The notes under the pieces were generated by a model that was given only the letters and a program-made list of their open reading frames with translations, searched no databases and was not told the DNA's origin. The translations under genes were made by a program, and so were the position numbers. Below are positions 1 through 9,490 of a stretch of DNA of 64,000 nt, piece by piece; within the stretch, counting starts at the first letter, position 1; each line of letters opens with the position of its first letter. This DNA is from Gammaproteobacteria bacterium (GTDB lineage Bacteria; Pseudomonadota; Gammaproteobacteria; SZUA-152): positions 1-64,000 of the forward strand of contig JAOUJW010000024.1 in NCBI GenBank assembly GCA_029882975.1, in the 5' to 3' direction.

Positions 1-36
1 TGCAAGCTGGGAGAGCAGTGCTTTGAAAATTACAAG

Positions 37-130
37 ATCTAACAAAGCAAATACACTCGGACCCAAAAAAGCGGCGCTCCTCGTACCTCGTCGCTCTGCT
101 TTTTTGGCCCGGTGATTTGCGTCGTTAGAA
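37..130 (+). mobile_element. attC-like cassette recombination site
   Basis: Imperfect inverted repeat of about 94 bases. The left end is ATCTAAC (37-43), matching the core RYYYAAC; the right end is GTTAGAA (124-130), close to GTTRRRY. Inside these, GCAAAT (left) pairs with ATTTGC (right) and CCAAAAAAGC pairs with GCTTTTTTGG, leaving a few unpaired bases as in integron attC sites. It closes a cassette whose gene lies outside the window to the left. The structure is read directly; its activity is inferred. Confidence 0.75.
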
Positions 131-395
131 ACCCAAAATAAATATAAGAAGAATAAAAACGGTTTCACTTTTCACTTGCCATGAGTTCGGCAAGTAACGA
201 GCAGGAATGAAAATGGATTTAGGCTTTTTCAAAGCCTAAAAGCAAACCACCCAAGGTGGTTTAAAAACAATCAAAAATGAACATTGGTGGGGGCAAGGCC
301 AGTGGATCGTCTAGTTTTTCACCACTTTTCCCTCCCCAGGGCGGTAGCGTGCCAAAAGGTTGTTTTCTCGTCCTTTGGTCAGTGCTAGCATCAGT
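131..395. other. Cassette body without a convincing gene; three tandem hairpins
   Basis: This stretch lies between two attC-like sites. It holds three hairpins in a row: CTTGCC/GGCAAG (175-194), a perfect 10-base stem TTTAGGCTTT/AAAGCCTAAA (218-240) and a perfect 8-base stem AAACCACC/GGTGGTTT (244-262). Short open frames exist on both strands (277-468 plus, 261-452 minus), but both run into the attC at 396-460 and have no recognisable domain or good ribosome site. It may encode a structured RNA, carry a promoter or terminator, or be a gene-less cassette of the kind common in chromosomal integrons. Confidence 0.45.
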
Positions 396-460
396 TTCTA
401 ACAATTCGTTCGTGTGTGACAGGCGCAGAGAACGCGCCTGCCCACAACTCAACGTTAGCT
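396..460 (+). mobile_element. attC-like cassette recombination site
   Basis: A 65-base imperfect palindrome with TTCTAAC (396-402) at the left and GTTAGCT (454-460) at the right. The flanking pieces (AACAATTCGTTC on the left, ACTCAACGTTAG on the right) closely resemble the attC of aadA-type cassettes, and ACAGGCGC/GCGCCTG forms the central stem. The next gene begins within about 10 bases of its right end, the normal spacing of a cassette gene. Confidence 0.8.
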
Positions 461-470
461 ATAAGTGATT

Positions 471-1121
471 ATGAGTCATAACTACGAAAATATTTTACGC
501 GCAGACGGTTGGGTGGAATTTAATGACATCCCTTCAATACAGTCCGTTGTGTGCCTCGCTAGAGAATTCGGTGAGATCATTCCTCATCCGGATGGGAAGG
601 ATTTCAATATTGTTACTCCAAAGCAAAAAAATGCTGCTTACCCCGGAACGTTAAGCAATCTACACGGTTTCGACGAATTCCCCCTCCATACTGATACTGC
701 TTTCTGGCCTGTGCCCGCCAGATATCTTGTTTTAGCTATGCTCAATAAGAATAGTTATAGCAGTAATGTTGTAAACGCGAACAAAGTTTTTGAATCGCTT
801 GACCACGATGTTCGGAAAGCGGCGCGAGACGCAGTGTTTAAGGTCCATACCCCGTTAGGGGATTTTGATGCGTCCGCAATCTTTGAAGAATCGGGGGAAA
901 TTGGGTTTCGCTTCAATGCATGTTGCATGACGCCAGCCAATGTAACCGCCAAAAGTTTCTTAGTAGCGTTTGACCATGCTTTAAGGTGTACAACACCCAA
1001 CACATTACAATGGACAGGCAGCAAAGCAGTAATCATAGATAACTGGAAAGTCTTACATGGTCGTAGTGCAATAAGAGATTTTTTAACAGAAAGAAAGTTG
1101 ATACGAATTTATGTAAAATAA
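471..1121 (+). CDS. TauD/TfdA-like Fe(II)/2-oxoglutarate dioxygenase
   Basis: Predicted non-haem iron oxygenase of about 216 residues, shorter than TauD (about 280). Counting from an upstream GTG at 465, the iron ligands are visible as HTD (His75, Asp77) and the distal His198 in DNWKVLHGR; a downstream Arg (210 or 214 in ERKLIRIYV) would bind the 2-oxoglutarate carboxylate. I prefer ATG 471 over GTG 465, but neither has a strong ribosome site. The gene starts directly after an attC site. The substrate is unknown. It lies 216 bases upstream of a small peptide gene that is followed by a second 2-oxoglutarate oxygenase, so a role in modifying that peptide is possible but not shown. Confidence 0.8.
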   Translation: MSHNYENILRADGWVEFNDIPSIQSVVCLAREFGEIIPHPDGKDFNIVTPKQKNAAYPGTLSNLHGFDEFPLHTDTAFWPVPARYLVLAMLNKNSYSSNVVNANKVFESLDHDVRKAARDAVFKVHTPLGDFDASAIFEESGEIGFRFNACCMTPANVTAKSFLVAFDHALRCTTPNTLQWTGSKAVIIDNWKVLHGRSAIRDFLTERKLIRIYVK

Positions 1122-1279
1122 GGGGAATGTAAGACAACGTTCGGCTTATTAATGTTGGGCTTTCTAACGAAAGACCAACAACACAATTCGGAATATGAGT
1201 GTGAATTATGTCGCGTAACACCGATATGTCTACAAATGCAATATTTTTATTCCACTTTTTTCTGAATGGCAGGAAGTGC

Positions 1280-1307
1280 TTCACGAAAACATGGAGGCTT
1301 TTATTAT
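1280..1307 (+). promoter_or_regulatory. Possible sigma-70 promoter for the peptide gene
   Basis: TTCACG (1280-1285) and TATTAT (1302-1307) are separated by 16 bases and lie about 30 bases before the peptide start. Both hexamers deviate from consensus, so this is only suggestive. If real, the peptide and the oxygenase downstream would be transcribed separately from the TauD-like gene. Confidence 0.3.
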
Positions 1308-1337
1308 GTTAGTTCTTAAGTCCAAAGGAGGATTGAT

Positions 1338-1508
1338 ATGACCAATGAAAAAGACGAGCCTGAGAAGATCGAAGTAGAAGAGAAGGATGCGAAAGTTTCC
1401 GAAGAACGGCCTCGTGATTCTCTATATCGAGAGCCTAATTCAAAAGGCAGTTCAGAATCACATGGCACTAATACGTCTCATTGTCCTGATAACTGGGGCG
1501 ATGGCTAA
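1338..1508 (+). CDS. Small peptide, candidate RiPP precursor (56 aa)
   Basis: The open frame runs from ATG 1338 to TAA 1506-1508 and has one of the best ribosome sites in the window (AAAGGAGGAT, 1325-1334). The first half is very rich in Glu, Lys and Asp, with a few hydrophobic residues (MTNEKDEPEKIEVEEKDAKV). The second half is rich in Ser, Gly and Asn and ends SHGTNTSHCPDNWGDG, with one Cys, one Trp and two His. A charged leader plus a short tail holding modifiable residues, just before a peptide- or protein-type oxygenase gene, is the layout of many RiPP precursors. I recognise no known precursor family. It could instead be a small acidic protein of another kind. Confidence 0.55.
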   Translation: MTNEKDEPEKIEVEEKDAKVSEERPRDSLYREPNSKGSSESHGTNTSHCPDNWGDG

Positions 1509-1538
1509 CTTAGCGTCAATGTAGTCTATATATATTGC

Positions 1539-1567
1539 GCGACAGTGCTCGTTTCGAGCCCTGTCGC
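1539..1567 (+). promoter_or_regulatory. Stable hairpin between peptide and oxygenase genes
   Basis: GCGACAG-TGCTCG and CGAGC-C-CTGTCGC form a stem of about 12 pairs with one mismatch and a three-base loop. No T-tract follows, so it is not a clear Rho-independent terminator. Its place, 30 bases after the peptide stop and before the enzyme gene, fits a partial terminator or mRNA-stabilising element that gives more peptide than enzyme. It could also be a relic of an attC core. Confidence 0.5.
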
Positions 1568-1611
1568 TCAACCCGTTTATTGGAGTCTAACCCACGGCTT
1601 TAACAAGCAAT

Positions 1612-2832
1612 TTGAGCACAAATTCATCAAAGATATATTGTATGAAACAGAAAATTGAGAATGTCATTCTGGGGGGAATCCCTGAAGATCAGTTTGCAGA
1701 ACAAATCTGGGGGGCTACCCCATTCCATTCAAAAGACTGTTTCTCTCCGAAGGATTATTTTTCAATTAGGGAGCTAACTGACATCCTTAGAGAAAGCGGA
1801 GTAATTCGATATGGAGCGACAAGTGTAGGAAAAGAAAAGAGTGACTTATTTCAACCTTATGTATCAAGTTTTGATGTTAGTAAACTTAAAGAATTGGAAA
1901 AACTTCATATCATAGAAAGCCTGTACGATGCAAAGTCCTGTTTTGATGACGGAAGAGGCATCTTGGCTCATAGGTTGGAAAGGTTTTTACCATTAAAGCA
2001 TAAGCTTAGAATTATCTATAATTATTTATTAGAATTAACCGGATGCGTAAGAGAAGAGTTAGTGGTTGCAGCATTCCTTACACCTCCTTATAGCAAAACT
2101 TTCGACTGGCACACAGACTCTGACCATGTGTTTACTATGCAAATCGAAGGAGAAAAGAAGTGGGAGATCAAGGAACTTGATGGCAGAATTAATATATTTC
2201 AGATCACTCCGGGAGATGTATTATATATTCCAGCAGACCTCCCCCATCGTGTAGTTTCGGAAGGCTCTACAAGCCTTTCAGTATCATATGTGGTGATTCC
2301 TAAAACATACTCCCAGATATTTACAACCGCTTTATTGAAGAAGCTCGAAAAGGATCTTTATGGCGAATTAAAAAACAGAATTCCTTTGCCTTTCCGGTGG
2401 AGGAAAAATCTGAATAGTATGTCTATCGATAAAGTAACGGCTACGGTATTCCGTAAATATGGTTTAGAAGATCAGGACTTTCGTGATGCTCTAATTGATG
2501 AGTACGCTTCCGATTCGATTTCTTACCTTGATGAAGCGTGGAACCCAAATTTCAATTATGCGGACAGAAAACTAGAACTTCATACAAAATTACAAAGATC
2601 GTCAAGCAATCCCATAAATATAGTTCGAAGAAGTTCAAGCGATGAAGTTGTCATTATTATGAATGGCAGGCCATCTTTGTGCGTGTCATCAAAATTGATC
2701 ATGGCGATAGACTATATTAGCGAGGCCGACACGCACTTTAGTTGCGATGACTTGCCGGATTGTTACACTGATGAATCAAAAATATTTATTTGCGCGAAAT
2801 TGCTTCAAGCTGGAATGGTCGATTTTTTGTAA
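1612..2832 (+). CDS. JmjC/cupin 2-oxoglutarate oxygenase, ribosomal-oxygenase-like
   Basis: A 406-residue protein with a JmjC-type double-stranded beta-helix. HTD (His167, Asp169) and His212 in ADLPHRV are the expected Fe(II) ligands; GEKKWEI and TPGDVLYIP are typical of cupin_8/JmjC enzymes. The last 70 residues (INIVRR, a VVIIMNGRPS strand, GMVDFL at the end) resemble the C-terminal winged helix of the bacterial ribosomal oxygenase RoxA/YcfD, which hydroxylates an arginine of uL16. Translation begins at TTG 1612 or ATG 1642; neither has a strong ribosome site. A 56-residue peptide gene lies just upstream and an attC site just downstream. I infer a peptide or protein hydroxylase; the local peptide is the obvious candidate substrate. 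Confidence 0.75.
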   Translation: MSTNSSKIYCMKQKIENVILGGIPEDQFAEQIWGATPFHSKDCFSPKDYFSIRELTDILRESGVIRYGATSVGKEKSDLFQPYVSSFDVSKLKELEKLHIIESLYDAKSCFDDGRGILAHRLERFLPLKHKLRIIYNYLLELTGCVREELVVAAFLTPPYSKTFDWHTDSDHVFTMQIEGEKKWEIKELDGRINIFQITPGDVLYIPADLPHRVVSEGSTSLSVSYVVIPKTYSQIFTTALLKKLEKDLYGELKNRIPLPFRWRKNLNSMSIDKVTATVFRKYGLEDQDFRDALIDEYASDSISYLDEAWNPNFNYADRKLELHTKLQRSSSNPINIVRRSSSDEVVIIMNGRPSLCVSSKLIMAIDYISEADTHFSCDDLPDCYTDESKIFICAKLLQAGMVDFL

Positions 2833-2861
2833 GAATATGGTCGAAGTAAACGTTATAAATA

Positions 2862-3171
<310 letters not shown>

Positions 3172-3264
3172 AATGGGTGTCAATTATTTCGGGGTAAGGT
3201 CAGGCGCTTGCTTCGCTGCGCGCCCCACATCTTATAAGTAATATGTATGTTCAAGGATAAATAC

Positions 3265-3618
3265 ATGTCAACTAGCATAATAGAATTTAGAGCAGAATTT
3301 AGTGATGAAGCCGCTGCGCGAAAAGTTAAATCAATTTTAGATAGAGCTTTAGAGTTTATTAACAATTCTTCAGAAGAAGCAGCTCTTCATCACGCGCTAA
3401 AAGAATTTGGGGAAACGAAGGGGATAAACTTTGACTCATGGTGGTATCCTGAAATAGCAGGGTTGAATGACAATGTAATAACTGCTGAGTTTGCTGGCTC
3501 ACCATCAGGAACAGAGGAGCAGGATGTAATAACATGGATTAAGTTGTATGGCGCAACAAAAGTAAGTGGGAAAGTCGATGTCGATAGTGGCGGAGATGCA
3601 TTTACAATTGAGTTTTAA
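3265..3618 (+). CDS. Hypothetical cassette protein
   Basis: A 117-residue soluble protein that I do not recognise. ATG 3265 is chosen because AAGGA (3253-3257) sits 7 bases upstream; ATG 3247 in the same frame has no such site. It has an amphipathic first half (DEAAARKVKSILDRALEFIN) and a beta-rich second half ending DAFTIEF. There is no signal peptide or membrane segment. It is followed 4 bases after the stop by an attC-like site, so it is a typical single-gene cassette. Function unknown. Confidence 0.65.
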   Translation: MSTSIIEFRAEFSDEAAARKVKSILDRALEFINNSSEEAALHHALKEFGETKGINFDSWWYPEIAGLNDNVITAEFAGSPSGTEEQDVITWIKLYGATKVSGKVDVDSGGDAFTIEF

Positions 3619-3622
3619 AATC

Positions 3623-3697
3623 ATATAACACAATCGTGTGTGACCACCAACCCGCAGCTTCGCTCTGGGCTGCCACACACACATCGCAACGTTATCG
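3623..3697 (+). mobile_element. attC-like cassette recombination site
   Basis: ATATAAC (3623-3629) and GTTATCG (3691-3697) are the end cores. CGTGTGTG on the left pairs with CACACACA on the right, and CCCGCAGC pairs with GCTGCC around a TTCGCT centre. It separates the gene ending at 3618 from the one starting at 3710, both in the same orientation. Confidence 0.75.
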
Positions 3698-3709
3698 GTA
3701 GCATGGAAA

Positions 3710-3955
3710 ATGAATAGTTGGCATGAAAGCAGAGCAAGGGAATCCTTAAGGAAAAGAAAAAATCAAACTACGTGTGCACGGTGCAGACTACTGTATGACA
3801 AGTCAAATAACGACTGCCCGCACTGTACCGGCATCGGTGACGAAGAACTACGGCGAGGCCTTGCTATAAGGATCAAAAAACGCGTAAGAGTCGGTAAAGC
3901 TATGATAATGGCAGCGTTTATTATATTCGTGCTTATGTTTTTCTTATATATATGA
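3710..3955 (+). CDS. Small zinc-ribbon membrane protein
   Basis: 81 residues. Residues 22-39 contain two CxxC pairs (CARC and CPHC) that would form a zinc ribbon. The C-terminus is a single membrane helix (about 62-81, GKAMIMAAFIIFVLMFFLYI) after a basic stretch, so the ribbon should face the cytoplasm. It starts 13 bases after an attC site. Family and function are not recognised. Confidence 0.6.
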   Translation: MNSWHESRARESLRKRKNQTTCARCRLLYDKSNNDCPHCTGIGDEELRRGLAIRIKKRVRVGKAMIMAAFIIFVLMFFLYI

Positions 3956-4176
3956 ATAAATGTATTCGGATTATAACCAGCTGCTCAACTCGGACGGACA
4001 ACTGCAGCGCTTTGGAGCCCTAGTATAGAAAGTGAACTTGATATGTACAAGCTCAATAGTGGCGGTGCGCAAAACTCTAAAATTGGTAATAATTGATGTT
4101 TATGGTTTCCTATAATAATACGCTCAACAATGGGCCTGTAAAGAGCTCCTTTAGCTATTCGTTATGTGAAGACAAT

Positions 4177-4522
4177 ATGATGCACAAAAAGATACTCTCG
4201 GCAACATTATTAGTGACTGTTTTAACTTCGCTACTGTATTATTTATTTTTAATAGATCTAGGAAAAACATATGAAGATATAGGAGAATCATTAAATGTTA
4301 CCGAAAAACCAATTAAAACTTTAATACTTAGATGGAAATGTATACACATTATTCTACTCACCTGGCACATCATTTACTGCACGTGAGTGGTGGGTCAATA
4401 AAAATGGAAATTATATTTATTCTATAAATTCTCATGATGGGCAAGTAGAGGATATGACCATCAAGGATGGAAAGGTGTATTTGGTTGGCTTGGGCATTGG
4501 TAATGTGGTTCTATCCAAATAA
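4177..4522 (+). pseudogene. Frameshifted single-pass membrane protein gene
   Basis: Frame one begins MMHKKILSATLLVTVLTSLL with a membrane anchor (residues 4-24) and runs to about 4325. A different frame then reads LDGNVYTLFYSPGTSFTARE and ends ...GNVVLSK at TAA 4520-4522. Together they give one coherent protein of about 115 residues with a single-base frameshift near 4320-4335, where the local sequence is AT-rich. The gene starts 10 bases after GTTATGT (4161-4167), a possible attC end. Either the gene is dead or the base call is wrong. No family recognised. Confidence 0.6.
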
Positions 4523-4544
4523 GGTGGAATAGGCATTTAACTAG

Positions 4545-5000
4545 ATGAATATGAACAATAGCTACACGCGCGAGATCACTGTTTCAAACACACCAAGCGA
4601 GGCATATCGTGCTTTGACGGCTGGCTTTAGTAAGTGGTGGACTACCGGCTGTAATCCCATATCTCAAACTGGTGATCGAATTACATTTCGTTTTGGTTCT
4701 ACTAGCTGGGTGATGCGCGCCAATAGGCTGGTTCCTGACAGTCTTGTCGAATTGGAATGCATCGAAGCTCATCATGTACATGAGGGGCTCCCATCAACAA
4801 TTCTCGGTGAATGGGAAGGAACCAAACTACAATGGAAAATCAAAAAGCAAGGACGCGAAACCCAGATAGTTTTCGTCCATCAGGGTCTTGTACCTTCGTT
4901 AGATTGCTATGACGTCTGCGGGCAAGGATGGGACTACTTTTTTGCCAACAGTCTGAAACAGTATCTAGATACTGGAAAAGGCTCACCATTTGAACATTGA
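4545..5000 (+). CDS. SRPBCC / AHSA1-like domain protein
   Basis: 151 residues with the layout of the START/SRPBCC fold of the AHSA1 (Hsp90 ATPase activator-like) group: an N-terminal strand YTREITVSNTPSEAYRALT, a W-W helix (FSKWWTT), a middle G-T-x-L-x-W strand (WEGTKLQWKI), a strand with VFVHQGL and a C-terminal helix (GWDYFFANSLKQYLDTGKG). Such proteins bind hydrophobic ligands in a cavity; the ligand is unknown. Its isolated position among cassette genes suggests a mobile accessory gene. Confidence 0.75.
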   Translation: MNMNNSYTREITVSNTPSEAYRALTAGFSKWWTTGCNPISQTGDRITFRFGSTSWVMRANRLVPDSLVELECIEAHHVHEGLPSTILGEWEGTKLQWKIKKQGRETQIVFVHQGLVPSLDCYDVCGQGWDYFFANSLKQYLDTGKGSPFEH

Positions 5001-5080
5001 AATCAAGAATATGCTTAGCAAGGCGATCGTTAGGGCGCAAACTACGCTGATCTTCGTTTTCGCCGCTATATATACGTTAT

Positions 5081-5608
5081 CTGTGCCTAGAGAAAGCGTT
5101 CTCAACTCTGCTTTCCATCATCGATACAAGCAATCTTAGGGTTCTTGATTTCGGTTGCCGTACAGGACTATTATCAGAAAAGATTTCCCGGTTTGCGAAT
5201 GAGGTTGTTGCTCTCGATACCTCTGAAAGAATGGCAGCCATTTTGAATAGCAAAGAACTACCGAATGTTATCAGTGTATCCGAGGAATTGTCAGAGGCAT
5301 TGGTCAAAGATAATTCGGTATTTACTAATCAATTTTATCTTATTGTGTCTTCATCCGTATGTGGTTTTTTACCGAATTGTGAAAGATCTCTATCGGTATT
5401 AAAGTCGGCATTGAAACCTGGGGGTATTTTTTTGCAGTGGGACTGGTTGTCTAATACAGACGAAAGCGACTTTGGTTTCAGTCATACCAAGATAGAGAGT
5501 GTATATAGAAAAATTGGCTTAACTCCTAGTTTGATTGAGGAGACGTTCTCTGTGCAAACCCTGGAGGGTGATATGCCTGTAATAAGAGGTGTGGCCGTCG
5601 ATGCTTAG
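5081..5608 (+). pseudogene. Class I SAM methyltransferase, N-terminally truncated
   Basis: The frame is open from 5051 but has no ATG until 5231, which is inside the domain. Motif I is visible upstream of that ATG as VLDFGCRTGLLSEKIS (normally GCGTG; here Arg replaces Gly), followed by the acidic loop ALDTSERM. Motif IV (FYLIVSSSVCGFLPN) and post-motif LKPGGIFLQWDW follow. The usual N-terminal helices are missing and the sequence begins near GTTATCT (about 5076), a possible attC end. It may start at CTG 5081, but I think it is a truncated, probably inactive, gene. Confidence 0.65.
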
Positions 5609-6012
5609 GGAGGCCACTTCATCAGAGCTCATTCCGCGGTGTTTTTGTTGGGCGCGTGCAGCACAAAAGCACGCCTCACAGGCCCGCTTATTAGTAGCGT
5701 TGTAAAAATGGTGTCTCTGGCCTAGGCTTTTCATGATTAGGCATATAGTGACATTAAGGTATGGCAATCCCCGCTTTGGTTTAGTGTTATCCTTATTATT
5801 GCTCTTCTGTTGGTCGTATATGCAGTCATGCGCCCCAGCTTAGAGGTTGCGTATTTTCAACTAGACTGACATGAACCAATTGAAATATTTTTTGATTACT
5901 GAAAGCTTTATCAGCGGCAAGGAGCGTGCCCGTCAGGGCCAAGACTCCTCTAGTAACTTGGCCTGCTCTCACAGAGCCTTATCACCTCATATTGTCCCAA
6001 GGAGGGTGTCAC
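5609..6012. other. 404-base spacer without a convincing gene
   Basis: Contains an inverted repeat GCGCGTGC/GCACGCC (5652-5675) just after GTTGGGC (5647-5653), a possible attC fragment. A short hydrophobic frame (5741-5868, VILIIALLLVVYAVMRPSLE) has no usable start codon. It ends with the strong ribosome site of the next gene. Confidence 0.4.
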
Positions 6013-6354
6013 GTGAAAATAGATAAACCATTACCATTTATTTACTTTACTTTCGCAGCCGTTGGCTTGTGTGTTACTTGGTACTATAATATTCTTTATT
6101 TTGCCGGAGGAGGCAGCATTGCACCAACCCAATTTTTTGGTACGGCATTTGCCAACAACCTCACAACAGCGATAACCTTTGATATATATATTTCTGCGAT
6201 AGTTTTTTCTATTTGGGTTTTGGTCGATGCAAAAACCAATAGACTCAAATGGCCGGTAATGTATATCGTACTATGTTTTGGTATTGGCCTGGCAGTTGCA
6301 CTCCCATTGTTTCTTGGTGTTCGTGAGCTGTCTCCTTCAAGGCAAACTAAATGA
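6013..6354 (+). CDS. DUF2834 membrane protein
   Basis: 113 residues, three predicted membrane helices. The pattern (Y/FAAVGLCVTWYYN start, G-P/T-QFFGTAFANN loop, then ITFDIYISAIVFSIWVLVDAK) matches DUF2834, a small family of unknown function. GTG 6013 is chosen because AAGGAGGG (5999-6006) lies 6 bases upstream; an upstream ATG at 5926 would add 29 hydrophilic residues without a ribosome site. Confidence 0.75.
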   Translation: MKIDKPLPFIYFTFAAVGLCVTWYYNILYFAGGGSIAPTQFFGTAFANNLTTAITFDIYISAIVFSIWVLVDAKTNRLKWPVMYIVLCFGIGLAVALPLFLGVRELSPSRQTK

Positions 6355-6488
6355 CACTGGTGAAACGAATATTTTAACCATACGAGAAGTTCACCTGGAG
6401 TCACGATGGTGACAAACTGGTGGTTCTTGTAGAGACTGACAAATTATCACAGAGTGATTTTTGTTATTTTGAGGCAGATGCGGGTTAA
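6350..6488 (+). pseudogene. Fragment of a decayed gene
   Basis: One frame reads NDTGETNILTIRE and a second reads KFTWSHDGDKLVVLVETDKL and ends EADAG at TAA 6486-6488. The two join naturally with one frameshift near 6385 and look like the beta-rich end of an unknown protein. There is no start codon or ribosome site. The identification as a remnant is weak. Confidence 0.3.
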
Positions 6489-6615
6489 TATTTTGTCGAA
6501 AAACGTGTCTGCCATTCCTGGTCCGGCCCACTGAGTGTACTCATGAATAGAATATTGGCGATCCCCCACTTTTGTTCTATCCAGATATATTGTGAATTGA
6601 AATGATAAAAGGCCA

Positions 6616-6666
6616 GACTAACAAGACACTCCAACTGACGCCAAAAGCCGTCACGGTGTGTTAAAC
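6616..6666 (+). mobile_element. Short attC-like cassette recombination site
   Basis: GACTAAC (6616-6622) and the canonical GTTAAAC (6660-6666) bracket arms GACACT/GGTGTG and TGACGCC/GCCGTCA with an AAAA loop. At 51 bases it is among the smallest attC sizes. The next gene starts 23 bases on. Confidence 0.65.
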
Positions 6667-6688
6667 AGTAGTAGGCAGTAAATTGTCT

Positions 6689-7063
6689 ATGGCATGGACA
6701 GAATCTATTGTTCAAGAACGCGTTCCGGTATGGGATGTATTATCAGAGTTCTGGCTTGATGGAGATTTGGTCGAGACTGATTACGAACGAATAGCAGCGA
6801 CACTAAAAGCGTCACCCTACACAAAAGAACAGTTGCTCAAAATCTGCATATACGAAGTAGCGCCGGCAGTGTCAAGTAACCTCATCAGTATAGCCGGCGA
6901 ATGGGGAGCTTTCGATCCTGAATGGCTCAAACAAGCTATAATGAAAAAATCACCTAATCCAGATGATTACTTAACTCCCGGCATTTGGAAACAAATTAGA
7001 GGGATAGTGCATATATCGCTAGTAAAGTCATCAGGATGGAAAGAAATTACTAAAAGACTATAG
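6689..7063 (+). CDS. DUF7079 family protein
   Basis: About 124 residues. The pattern ERVPVWDVLSEFWLD, then IAATLKASPYTKEQL, ICIYEVAPAV and NLISIAGEWGAFDPEWL matches DUF7079, a small soluble family of unknown function often found singly in accessory regions. ATG 6689 is preferred to the in-frame TTG 6683. It directly follows an attC site, as a cassette gene should. No catalytic motif is visible; the family's role is unknown to me. Confidence 0.7.
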   Translation: MAWTESIVQERVPVWDVLSEFWLDGDLVETDYERIAATLKASPYTKEQLLKICIYEVAPAVSSNLISIAGEWGAFDPEWLKQAIMKKSPNPDDYLTPGIWKQIRGIVHISLVKSSGWKEITKRL

Positions 7064-7174
7064 CACTTCAATTACGCTCATAAATCCGGAGATTTTGTGT
7101 TTACCTTACACTTATACATAAAATCTTCTAAAATAAAAAAGCCGGTTATGTAAAACGCGAGATATTCAACACAT

Positions 7175-7601
7175 ATGAGAATAGTATTGAATATCGCTAT
7201 TATTTTTCTTTTTTCTGTCACACGACACCGTATTGCGTGCCGGGAATTGGTATGGGCAACTGTCGATAGAGCCGAAAAATCTGTAGACGTATATATTGGT
7301 CGAGTGACAAGCATTTCAATTCCAGAACTGGAAACGCGTTTACTTCCAATTGGACAAAAAGGCTTCCTCATTCGTGGCGTTGAAAGAGTAATACGATTAA
7401 AAATATACAAAAGGCTAAAAGGTGATCTATGTTGTCGAAGCAAAATTGGGATGGTATCGTGGAGGCCAGGCTGATGTCGGTAACATGGTTGTATTGTAGC
7501 GCCTTGGTGATGAATGGTGAGTTAGGCAATCTGTGAGTGACATTTCAGAGATTCGACGTGCTTTAACAATAGAACCGGCACATAATACGCACGGCTCATA
7601 A
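7175..7601 (+). pseudogene. Decayed exported-protein gene with frameshift and two stops
   Basis: The first frame has a hydrophobic start (MRIVLNIAIIFLFSV) and reads VDVYIGRVTSISIPELE up to about 7420. A second frame then continues with VIYVVEAKLGWYRGGQADVG, passes through TAG (7497) and TGA (7515) and goes on with VRQSVSDISEIRRALTIEP to TAA 7599-7601. The continuous sense across one frameshift and two stops shows an originally longer protein of about 140 residues. No family recognised. Confidence 0.6.
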
Positions 7602-7625
7602 GCGACGGAAAAACATGGGAAAAAC

Positions 7626-8534
7626 ATGAACAGGACAACACTCTTTATTTTCGTAGTTCTGATTACCTATTGCGGAGTAACTCAAGCAGAAAAACCTGCC
7701 ACCATAGCAACAAATGACATTGTTGCGACGTACTCCTTTGATCCCACTACTATGTCTTTTGACGAACAAGCCAAACGTGCTCCCGAACTCGGTAAGCTCT
7801 GGTCGCGATTTCACAAGTCTCCAGAGTCATACCGGGTTGCCATGCGCGAGCTTCTCGGTAAGGATGGCCAATCGGAAATGCTTTACTGCGACGGTGGCAT
7901 GCTCTTTCTTCAGGAAGCCCGCCTGGAATCAGACAAAAAACTGGGGCTCAAATCAATCATGAAGTGTTCGCTTGTTGAGATCCAACACACTCCATATTTT
8001 TATACTATGCACAGAGAGGCAGTAGCGGGAATGGATACTATGGAACTTCAGTTTCGAATACTGACAAAACCCAAGTATCAGGTGTTTATTCCCCACCACG
8101 CACTCACACTCGGACAGGATTATGCTTTCGTTTATCCGCTACTTGTTCAAGATGAACGCAAATATGTCGAACAAATTATTGATAAGACGAAAGTCGAAAA
8201 AGACGAAACTGCGCTAAAAACACTGCTGCTTGCCCTATACTACGCAGCCACGGCCAGATCTGAATATACAATACGTTCGATTGGAAATAACAAGCAGACA
8301 CCACCAGAAGTACAAAAGCGAGCTAAAGAAATGACAGAGCAGATTGGGGAAATGCGTAAAAACGACCCCACGAAAATACACGACTGGCTGAAACGAAATA
8401 TGGTTGAAATTTCACCCAGTGCTACAGAACCCGATTTGCGTGCCGCACGACGCAAAAGGATGCAAGCCATCAGCGATGAAGCACTGATGGAGCTTGATAT
8501 GTACACCTTGTTGATCTACCAAGTTAGAAAGTAA
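7626..8534 (+). CDS. Hypothetical exported protein
   Basis: 302 residues with a clear signal peptide (MNRTTLFIFVVLITYCGVTQA, cleavage after about 21). The mature protein is mostly helical and charged, with two Cys (in MLYCDGG and IMKCSLVE) that could form a periplasmic disulfide and a middle block TLGQDYAFVYPLLVQDERKY. I recognise no domain. It starts 24 bases after the decayed gene upstream, with a weak ribosome site. It may be a cassette gene, but I find no clear attC site on either side. Confidence 0.65.
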   Translation: MNRTTLFIFVVLITYCGVTQAEKPATIATNDIVATYSFDPTTMSFDEQAKRAPELGKLWSRFHKSPESYRVAMRELLGKDGQSEMLYCDGGMLFLQEARLESDKKLGLKSIMKCSLVEIQHTPYFYTMHREAVAGMDTMELQFRILTKPKYQVFIPHHALTLGQDYAFVYPLLVQDERKYVEQIIDKTKVEKDETALKTLLLALYYAATARSEYTIRSIGNNKQTPPEVQKRAKEMTEQIGEMRKNDPTKIHDWLKRNMVEISPSATEPDLRAARRKRMQAISDEALMELDMYTLLIYQVRK

Positions 8535-8883
8535 CTTACCAACATCCGTTTCTGACGGGCTACGCCGGCGCGCGAAGCAGAACGCAACAATGGAAATGGA
8601 AGAAAACTGGAATAACTTTTGCACTTTAACACTTTCATCGTCTATTCCCAGGGTAATGTCGGTGCATGTAAAGCAGAGTCAGCGGAACACATAGGACATT
8701 CGTGTTTGGCAGGTATCGCAATATTAGTAGTGACTGTGGTTAACCCAAAGTGCATCGCTGTTCATACCAACCGTTTCGGCTACAGGAGGGGACGCACAAA
8801 ACAAAGAGTCGTTGTTGTTTTTGCCATTGCTGCTGACACTAAAAAAAGACATGCGATATTCATTCCTGCATTGAGGATACCAT
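8535..8883. other. 349-base spacer without a convincing gene
   Basis: Open frames here (for example 8619-8951 plus and 8724-8936 minus) lack ribosome sites and family features, and one overlaps the next gene. No attC pair is evident. The region ends with TGAGGATAC, the ribosome site of the following gene. Confidence 0.4.
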
Positions 8884-9288
8884 ATGAAAATAATAAAGCT
8901 GTTTCTTGTAATAGGATTGGCTGGGTATGGGTACAATTATTGGCAGAATAATTATTCTGGCAATCAAACGGGCACCAGCGATTATGGTTTTGTTACTTTA
9001 CCAAAACCTAGCAACCTGGATACTGACACTGTAATAATTTTGGCCGCAAAAAACTGCACTAAAGAGGCTGCTCAAAAAGCGGAGCATTTAGCAGATGAGC
9101 TGAGGCTCCGTAAAATTCCATACACTCGTGCCAGCAGCATAAGTTTTCAAAATTATGATCGTTCCTTAAAGAAAAATCTCGATTCAGTGATGGGCGGCCC
9201 CATGCCTCATGTCTTGATCGATGGCAGGGGTAAAGCAAACCCCACGCTTAATGACGTAGTTGCAGAATATAATTCTATATACGAATAA
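8884..9288 (+). CDS. Glutaredoxin/thioredoxin-fold-like anchored protein
   Basis: 134 residues. The N-terminus is a short membrane anchor or uncleaved signal (MKIIKLFLVIGLAGYGYNYW). The rest has a thioredoxin-like order: strand TVIILAAKNCT, helix KEAAQKAEHLADELRLR, strand IPYTRASS, then PHVLIDGRGKANPTLNDVVAEY, where a proline before a strand resembles the cis-Pro region. Only one Cys lies at the expected active-site place (NCTKE), so a classical CxxC dithiol mechanism is excluded. AGGA lies 7 bases before ATG 8884. The fold assignment is tentative. Confidence 0.55.
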   Translation: MKIIKLFLVIGLAGYGYNYWQNNYSGNQTGTSDYGFVTLPKPSNLDTDTVIILAAKNCTKEAAQKAEHLADELRLRKIPYTRASSISFQNYDRSLKKNLDSVMGGPMPHVLIDGRGKANPTLNDVVAEYNSIYE

Positions 9289-9490
9289 GCGGCATCGAGC
9301 AATAATCCATACGACTCATGGCTAACAATTAATCATTACACTCGCTGCATTGGCTATACTTACCATAGAGCACGATGAGGTACAAATCACCCTTAGAAAA
9401 CTTCTGCAATTACTTTGGAGCCAAAGGATGCGACTGGACAGGGAAAATCTCGTCGTGTCATAAGGTGGCACCTCCGGTGGCAATAGACAA

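Follow-up and report, generated by a model that had tools for sequence, protein, structure and literature searches.

A cassette at 461-2861 of the window, as we call the whole 64,000-nt stretch analysed here (the first 64 kb of contig C24, JAOUJW010000024.1, in a gammaproteobacterial genome of 5.18 Mb and 59 contigs), carries three genes, all on the plus strand, between two attC-like sites: a TauD-type oxygenase (P0001), a 56-aa peptide open reading frame (ORF; P0002) and a JmjC_2 oxygenase (P0003). We propose, with a probability of roughly 0.6, that P0002 and P0003 form a minimal precursor-enzyme pair of the type of ribosomally synthesized and post-translationally modified peptides (RiPPs), and the cassette may well yield a small chemically modified peptide. 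An earlier note on this DNA had described the same layout, including a winged helix in the JmjC protein, and every element was recovered where that note had placed it. The features of the cassette are as follows.

396-460, plus strand: attC-like site, left border, closing the preceding cassette (bottom-strand DNA fold, z -3.1)
471-1121, plus strand: TauD/TfdA-type 2-oxoglutarate (2OG) oxygenase P0001, 216 aa (PF02668, 43.3 bits, cut-off 27)
1324-1331, plus strand: Shine-Dalgarno sequence AAAGGAGG of the peptide gene, six bases upstream of the ATG (duplex -11.6 kcal/mol)
1338-1508, plus strand: candidate precursor peptide P0002, 56 aa (ORF and translation, strong Shine-Dalgarno)
1482-1505, plus strand: codons of the C-terminal CPDNWGDG, the proposed modified end (end-anchored match to a Paracoccus precursor)
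1539-1567, plus strand: strong hairpin, lacking a T run, in the spacer from P0002 to P0003 (fold of 1500-1615, z -4.0)
1642-2832, plus strand: JmjC_2 2OG oxygenase P0003, 396 aa, ending in a winged helix (PF08007, 48.3 bits, cut-off 22)
2563-2829, plus strand: C-terminal winged-helix domain of P0003, residues 308-396, of the ribosomal-oxygenase (ROX) type and resembling a RiPP recognition element (RRE) (model, mean predicted local distance difference test score, pLDDT, 90.9)
2862-2940, plus strand: attC-like site, right border, closing the TauD/peptide/JmjC cassette (bottom-strand fold, z -1.8)

The pairing is suggested first by the relatives of P0003. The closest one in the genome collection is a JmjC protein of Paracoccus benzoatiresistens EF6 (L060:6959-8098; 26% identity over 383 columns, 159 bits); its gene closes an operon that also encodes a 118-aa precursor (4129-4485), a second JmjC and a LanM-type dehydratase domain (DUF4135, 168.8 bits). 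The two proteins are sisters in a 33-row tree (support 99/97), and in a tree without this Paracoccus sequence P0003 groups at 91/93 with JmjC proteins of RiPP clusters, namely the second Paracoccus JmjC, two from Streptomyces YcaO-TfuA loci and an alphaproteobacterial-type one from a LanM-Nif11 cluster. P0003 belongs to a family present in RiPP clusters. The HxD...H ligands that had been read as intact in this protein, H157, D159 and H202, are invariant across a 23-row alignment. Close homologues were found neither in the genome collection (exact peptide patterns) nor in viral contigs or phages; 96 related genomes gave the protein's own copy and one partial match (E 5.6e-4), and 369 genomes of the class gave its own copy only. 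A two-row profile retrieved one partial relative from a viral contig (L143, 33% over residues 151-205), located amid several other oxygenase-like ORFs, and, in 24 genomes of the order, nothing besides P0003 itself; at 1e-25 it retrieved nothing in 385 genomes of another class, a set with no known positive, so that the empty answer shows nothing.

Of all the links found here between the peptide and the JmjC protein, the most specific is the C-terminal end that P0002 shares with the Paracoccus precursor. P0002 ends in CPDNWGDG and the Paracoccus precursor, which contains ARYENWGSE twice, with one copy at the very C-terminus, ends in RYENWGSE; the common pattern is [DE]NWGxx. Anchored at the last residue, the two ends reach a BLOSUM62 score of 23, a value that 119 of 200,000 P0002 shuffles and one of 11,463 control small ORFs from other loci attained, for a likeness that had been spotted before it was tested. 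The shared end suggests the site of enzyme action, and we place the chance that the JmjC enzyme modifies the NWG end slightly below even. Besides this pattern, the two loci have in common a clearly related winged-helix JmjC, whereas the Paracoccus locus differs in its longer precursor, which has a long leader and the duplicated motif, in its LanM-type dehydratase domain and in its second JmjC. A plasmid match to the Paracoccus precursor (E 0.3) lies inside a helicase gene and was taken as chance.

The peptide gene itself lies 133 nt upstream of the JmjC gene on the same strand. Its near-perfect Shine-Dalgarno duplex ranks first among the 1,019 ATG triplets of the plus strand of the window, which bears out the strong ribosome site claimed for it earlier; the two start candidates of P0003 that were examined (1642 and 1612) both lack a good Shine-Dalgarno sequence. 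The hairpin at 1539-1567 is outside the set of predicted terminator-like sites and is a candidate attenuator or partial terminator; its place between a presumed precursor gene and an enzyme gene would suit an attenuator. P0002 has an acidic N-terminal half, a C-terminal part of Ser, Gly, Asn and His, and no Phe. Being very acidic and polar, with few hydrophobic residues, it might also be no substrate at all but an intrinsically disordered peptide that serves the JmjC protein, or a neighbouring gene, as partner, inhibitor or antitoxin. We consider this very improbable: precursor-like short ORFs stand beside many members of the JmjC family, and the feature held in common is C-terminal.

How far does such an association extend beyond Paracoccus? 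We surveyed 43 loci around P0003 relatives, comprising 27 with a full-length JmjC by profile, eight other genome loci and eight plasmid loci, the last drawn from two plasmid searches of 13 and 16 records. Ten of the 27 came, like the eight other genome loci, from a set of 18 loci and 17 from an 80-locus search, the other 63 of which (mostly partial, Actinomycetota) were left out. A LanM, YcaO, radical SAM or bacteriocin-type exporter gene lies near the JmjC gene in 11 of the 43, a tally that is not an independent test because seven of these same loci were a source of the RiPP enzyme queries; such neighbours occur, for example, in Pseudanabaena (LanM-Nif11), Streptomyces and Paraburkholderia (both YcaO-TfuA) and Mycetohabitans (radical SAM). 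Twelve further loci (L043, L044, L046, L048, L049, L081, L085, L102, L110, L119, L130 and L136, by motif count) have an ORF with at least three SDxD-type motifs within 2.5 kb of the JmjC gene, against none of 21 control regions, for 13 of which the stretches, at about 3.5 kb, were shorter than those tested.

A JmjC_2 winged-helix clade in Alphaproteobacteria, Gemmatimonadota and Verrucomicrobiota adjoins TDSD or SDSDG repeat peptides, and from the sequences it looks like a class of secreted peptides modified at Asp/Asn by a single enzyme. By eye, most SDxD repeat peptides carry a twin-arginine-like leader, and several have the recurring leader [ED]D[IV]....RR.FL. Peptides seen by eye at L042, L065, L084 and L095 fall below the motif threshold and outside the twelve; at L095, from Paenarthrobacter, the JmjC lies outside that clade and adjoins GADGG repeats. 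In L058, whose genome belongs to the window's class, a glycine-rich bacteriocin-like peptide with a double-glycine-like leader (3600-3935) stands beside an exporter gene and a JmjC gene (4418-5569). Similar 45-60 aa peptides (MGIRD...) on Mycolicibacterium and Streptomyces plasmids (L005:6773-9703 and L010:7382-12026) adjoin paired short JmjC/cupin proteins and an AAC(3)-family gene.

The structure of P0003 was modelled with AlphaFold from a 23-row alignment (mean pLDDT 79, weak at residues 55-90 and 240-310). The model matches NO66, MINA53 and YcfD across the JmjC core, and NO66 and MINA53 through to the C-terminus, and these two are both its top whole-model structural matches and its top profile matches in the PDB; as modelled, P0003 has the JmjC, helical and winged-helix architecture of ribosomal oxygenases. 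In the C-terminal domain, strands are predicted at 9-12, 18-22, 28-33 and 39-42 and helices at 43-54, 61-63 and 70-82. The strict RRE definition, as given in the relevant section of PMC12710340, requires the order beta-beta-beta then alpha-alpha-alpha, and the second helix of that definition is only three residues long in the P0003 domain model. No Pfam family matched this domain of P0003 (ROXA-like_wH was found in one of the 23 rows), and its profile gave no match in the PDB better than E 0.5. From the model, a substrate-holding role of this winged helix is plausible, whether or not it is an RRE.

A mechanism can be proposed in which P0002 would be the precursor and its acidic N-terminal half the leader. 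The leader would be held by the RRE-like winged helix of P0003, whose JmjC domain would use Fe(II), O2 and 2-oxoglutarate to oxidise, most likely hydroxylate, a side chain in the CPDNWGDG end. As candidates for the modified residue we rank Asn or Asp first, because related JmjC proteins adjoin Asp/Asn-rich peptides, and Trp second.

A number of results weigh against the proposed pair. The C-terminal domain of P0003 finds its best structural matches in MINA53 and NO66, whose winged helices align at Z 10-12; the winged helix announced by the earlier note is present in the model and is closer to these two than to YcfD/RoxA. Next, and in favour of the pair, come TigE, McbB, MccB, TbiB1 with leader and PqqD at Z 7.0-8.0 (7.0-7.9 for McbB, MccB, TbiB1 and PqqD), within a range of 6.5-8 for RRE-holding chains. 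The aligned stretches of TigE, McbB, MccB, TbiB1 and PqqD are RREs, in some cases by their entry titles. Z values of 5.7-6.4 are, on the other side, attained by winged helices with other functions, and by the tool's warning a Z below 8 may mean no more than a common arrangement. Both P0003 trees have long branches that come together, a point on which the tool itself gives a warning. The NWG likeness concerns a single pair with one relative; a free local comparison of P0002 with the Paracoccus precursor was weaker (28 of 2,000 shuffles) and BLASTP between them returned nothing. By the tests applied, a RiPP enzyme and an SD-type repeat peptide are both missing from 20 of the 43 loci, and among the cassette ORFs no protease or exporter was recognised. 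Sequence homologues of P0002 were absent from plasmids, viral contigs, the own genome (itself only) and 369 class genomes, and because there is none, the P0002 frame is not demonstrated to be under selection. Its leader was compared with 18 other precursors, and the best two scores were reached by 25 and 37 of 1,000 shuffles; the likeness is limited to composition.

Two candidates for kinship of P0002 were set aside. One match in the 369 class genomes (E 0.005) has three in-frame stops and was taken as chance, and leader kinship to the Opitutaceae or Streptomyces cadmiisoli precursors does not go beyond chance across the 18 comparisons. The earlier note had looked to peptide homologues beside related oxygenases as support and to their absence as refutation; with no sequence homologue found, that objection is partly borne out.

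Could P0003 then simply be a ribosomal-oxygenase-type enzyme of the NO66/MINA53/YcfD kind, acting on a ribosomal or other cell protein, with the small ORF a chance or unrelated one? The known substrates of NO66, MINA53 and YcfD are ribosomal proteins. This explanation would fit the structural and profile matches of the whole protein and of its winged helix, as well as the lack of P0002 homologues in the collections searched. We nevertheless regard it as unlikely, since the closest P0003 relatives lie in RiPP clusters, P0002 combines its Shine-Dalgarno sequence with the shared NWG end, and the host already has another JmjC protein of the superfamily. The latter (C4:185801-186334) was detected by a profile search of the own genome, in which no second P0003 copy was found at the single-sequence level, and reads as YcfD-type from its match. 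P0003 resembles NO66, MINA53 and YcfD/RoxA in overall fold, including the winged helix, and differs from them as a cassette gene beside a peptide ORF. Bacillus subtilis YxbC (7zcc, 1vrb) shares the JmjC core (Foldseek E 2e-13) but aligns over residues 1-275 only and is annotated merely as a putative asparaginyl hydroxylase.

The precursor-enzyme pair as we propose it leaves out the third gene of the cassette. The earlier note had suggested that the peptide is the substrate of one or both oxygenases; the JmjC part of this claim is supported indirectly, by relatives in RiPP clusters, the RRE-like domain and the shared NWG end, and the TauD part is not. It might be supposed that TauD and JmjC act on the peptide in sequence, as they share a cassette, a strand and intact ligands (the HTD and distal His of TauD, in agreement with the note, being read from the sequence only). 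However, 216 nt separate the TauD and peptide genes, and a look by eye through the ORFs at the Paracoccus locus revealed no TauD. Furthermore, 44 plasmid records contain TauD relatives (26-32% identity in the best 20 of the 44), and in all four that were opened (A. wuhouensis, P. aeruginosa, A. vitis and Bradyrhizobium) the next gene is not a peptide but a homologous protein of 310-325 aa with an RNxELH motif and Cys pairs, a partner that the window TauD is without. A part for TauD in peptide modification is accordingly improbable in our estimation, and unless shown otherwise we regard it as a passenger or a protein of separate function, tied to the peptide by the shared cassette alone.

The four plasmid pairs (L040:5965-7553, L041:5968-7615, L158:3893-5510 and L159:3932-5553; partner 25-45% identical to the protein P0005) form a candidate two-gene unit, either for defence or of a toxin-antitoxin-like kind. 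In three of the four, a gene for a TrlF ATPase or for SIR2 lies nearby, and the RNxELH motif is HEPN-like. PADLOC gave no match for any of seven proteins, including two TauD/partner pairs. Relatives of the window TauD were absent from phages and viral contigs, and in 274 class genomes only the protein itself was found.

Another important point is whether 461-2861 is indeed one cassette. Two more attC-like sites lie outside its borders.

37-130, plus strand: attC-like site (bottom-strand fold, z -6.2)
3623-3697, plus strand: attC-like site (bottom-strand fold, z -2.0)

A strict criterion (TAACA ... CGTTA, at least 70% palindromic), drawn up after the sites had been seen, yields four sites on the plus strand of 1-9490, none on the plus strand of 9491-64000 (54.5 kb) and none on the entire minus strand; a looser criterion is non-discriminating, since it marks four sites in the 9.5 kb and 15 in a control of 40 kb. 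Since attC-like sites flank 461-2861 and no strict-criterion site lies inside it, we treat the region as a single cassette of three plus-strand genes. Separate cassettes for TauD and the peptide were rejected, there being no strict-criterion site between the two genes. The stretch between them does contain a hairpin of 26 nt (~1153-1178) that bears the boxes GTTGGGC and TCTAAC; it could be a relic, so an old cassette fusion is possible. An integron integrase is encoded on another contig of the same genome (C32:2469-3410, TIGR02249, 446.7 bits), near which the attC-like sites are of a different, 105-bp type.

The cassette zone occupies the first ~9 kb of the window, whose gene content, with rsgA, hemA, prfA and mreB-type proteins, reads as gammaproteobacterial. 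Directly past the right attC site lies a C-terminal fragment of an IS3-type transposase (2962-3171), and the start of the following cassette is therefore disrupted. More plus-strand cassette-like ORFs follow at 3247-8534, namely AHSA1-like (4545), DUF2834 (5926), DUF7079 (6683, 95.6 bits), along with several of no known family. Downstream of 3697 the window has no further strict-criterion site. Rfam at gathering scores returned only two tRNAs, and predicted promoters are not in excess in 1-4200 (10 found, 10.9 expected).

Compared with known systems, the proposed chemistry has precedents. BipG and PbsQ, JmjC/cupin ornithine hydroxylases, establish that a JmjC-type oxygenase can hydroxylate a residue of a RiPP precursor, as described in the sections concerned of two reports on biphenomycin-type pathways (PMC12707348, PMC12257519). 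Those pathways, likened here by description, differ from the cassette in also having an MNIO, a B12 radical SAM enzyme and an arginase, and their cores hold FRF, while P0002 has no Phe; neither an FHAFRF precursor nor any of these three enzymes was recognised in 461-2861, which is thus not of the biphenomycin type. Likewise, no lanthionine synthetase is present among the cassette ORFs, which sets the unit apart from lanthipeptide systems. Fusions of RRE domains to JmjC_2 (PF08007) are described in PMC12710340, which also notes bacterial homologues in RiPP-like contexts; the fusions share with P0003 the JmjC_2 domain and a winged helix that is beta3-alpha3-like, but the examples are from fish and algae, no substrate is given and integrons are unmentioned in the section concerned.

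The earlier note had considered a modification system in integron cassettes to be new. No RiPP-type unit inside an integron cassette was found in the open-licence literature, among the matches listed; JmjC oxygenases in RiPP pathways are already known, as are integron cassettes, and what would be new is the integron-cassette context. The fuller claim, that a complete RiPP-type unit (one precursor and one JmjC-RRE oxygenase that modifies its [DE]NWG C-terminus) travels in an integron cassette and that integrons shuffle such systems like resistance genes, falls in our view a little short of an even bet. Should this hold, modified-peptide systems would have a vehicle in integrons, and the cassette would provide a very small two-gene unit that is directly testable. 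JmjC_2 winged-helix proteins, familiar chiefly as ribosomal oxygenases, would then represent a broader peptide-modifying class: some adjoin LanM, YcaO or radical SAM genes, and others, mostly in a separate clade, adjoin Asp-rich repeat peptides in three phyla (Pseudomonadota, Gemmatimonadota and Verrucomicrobiota).

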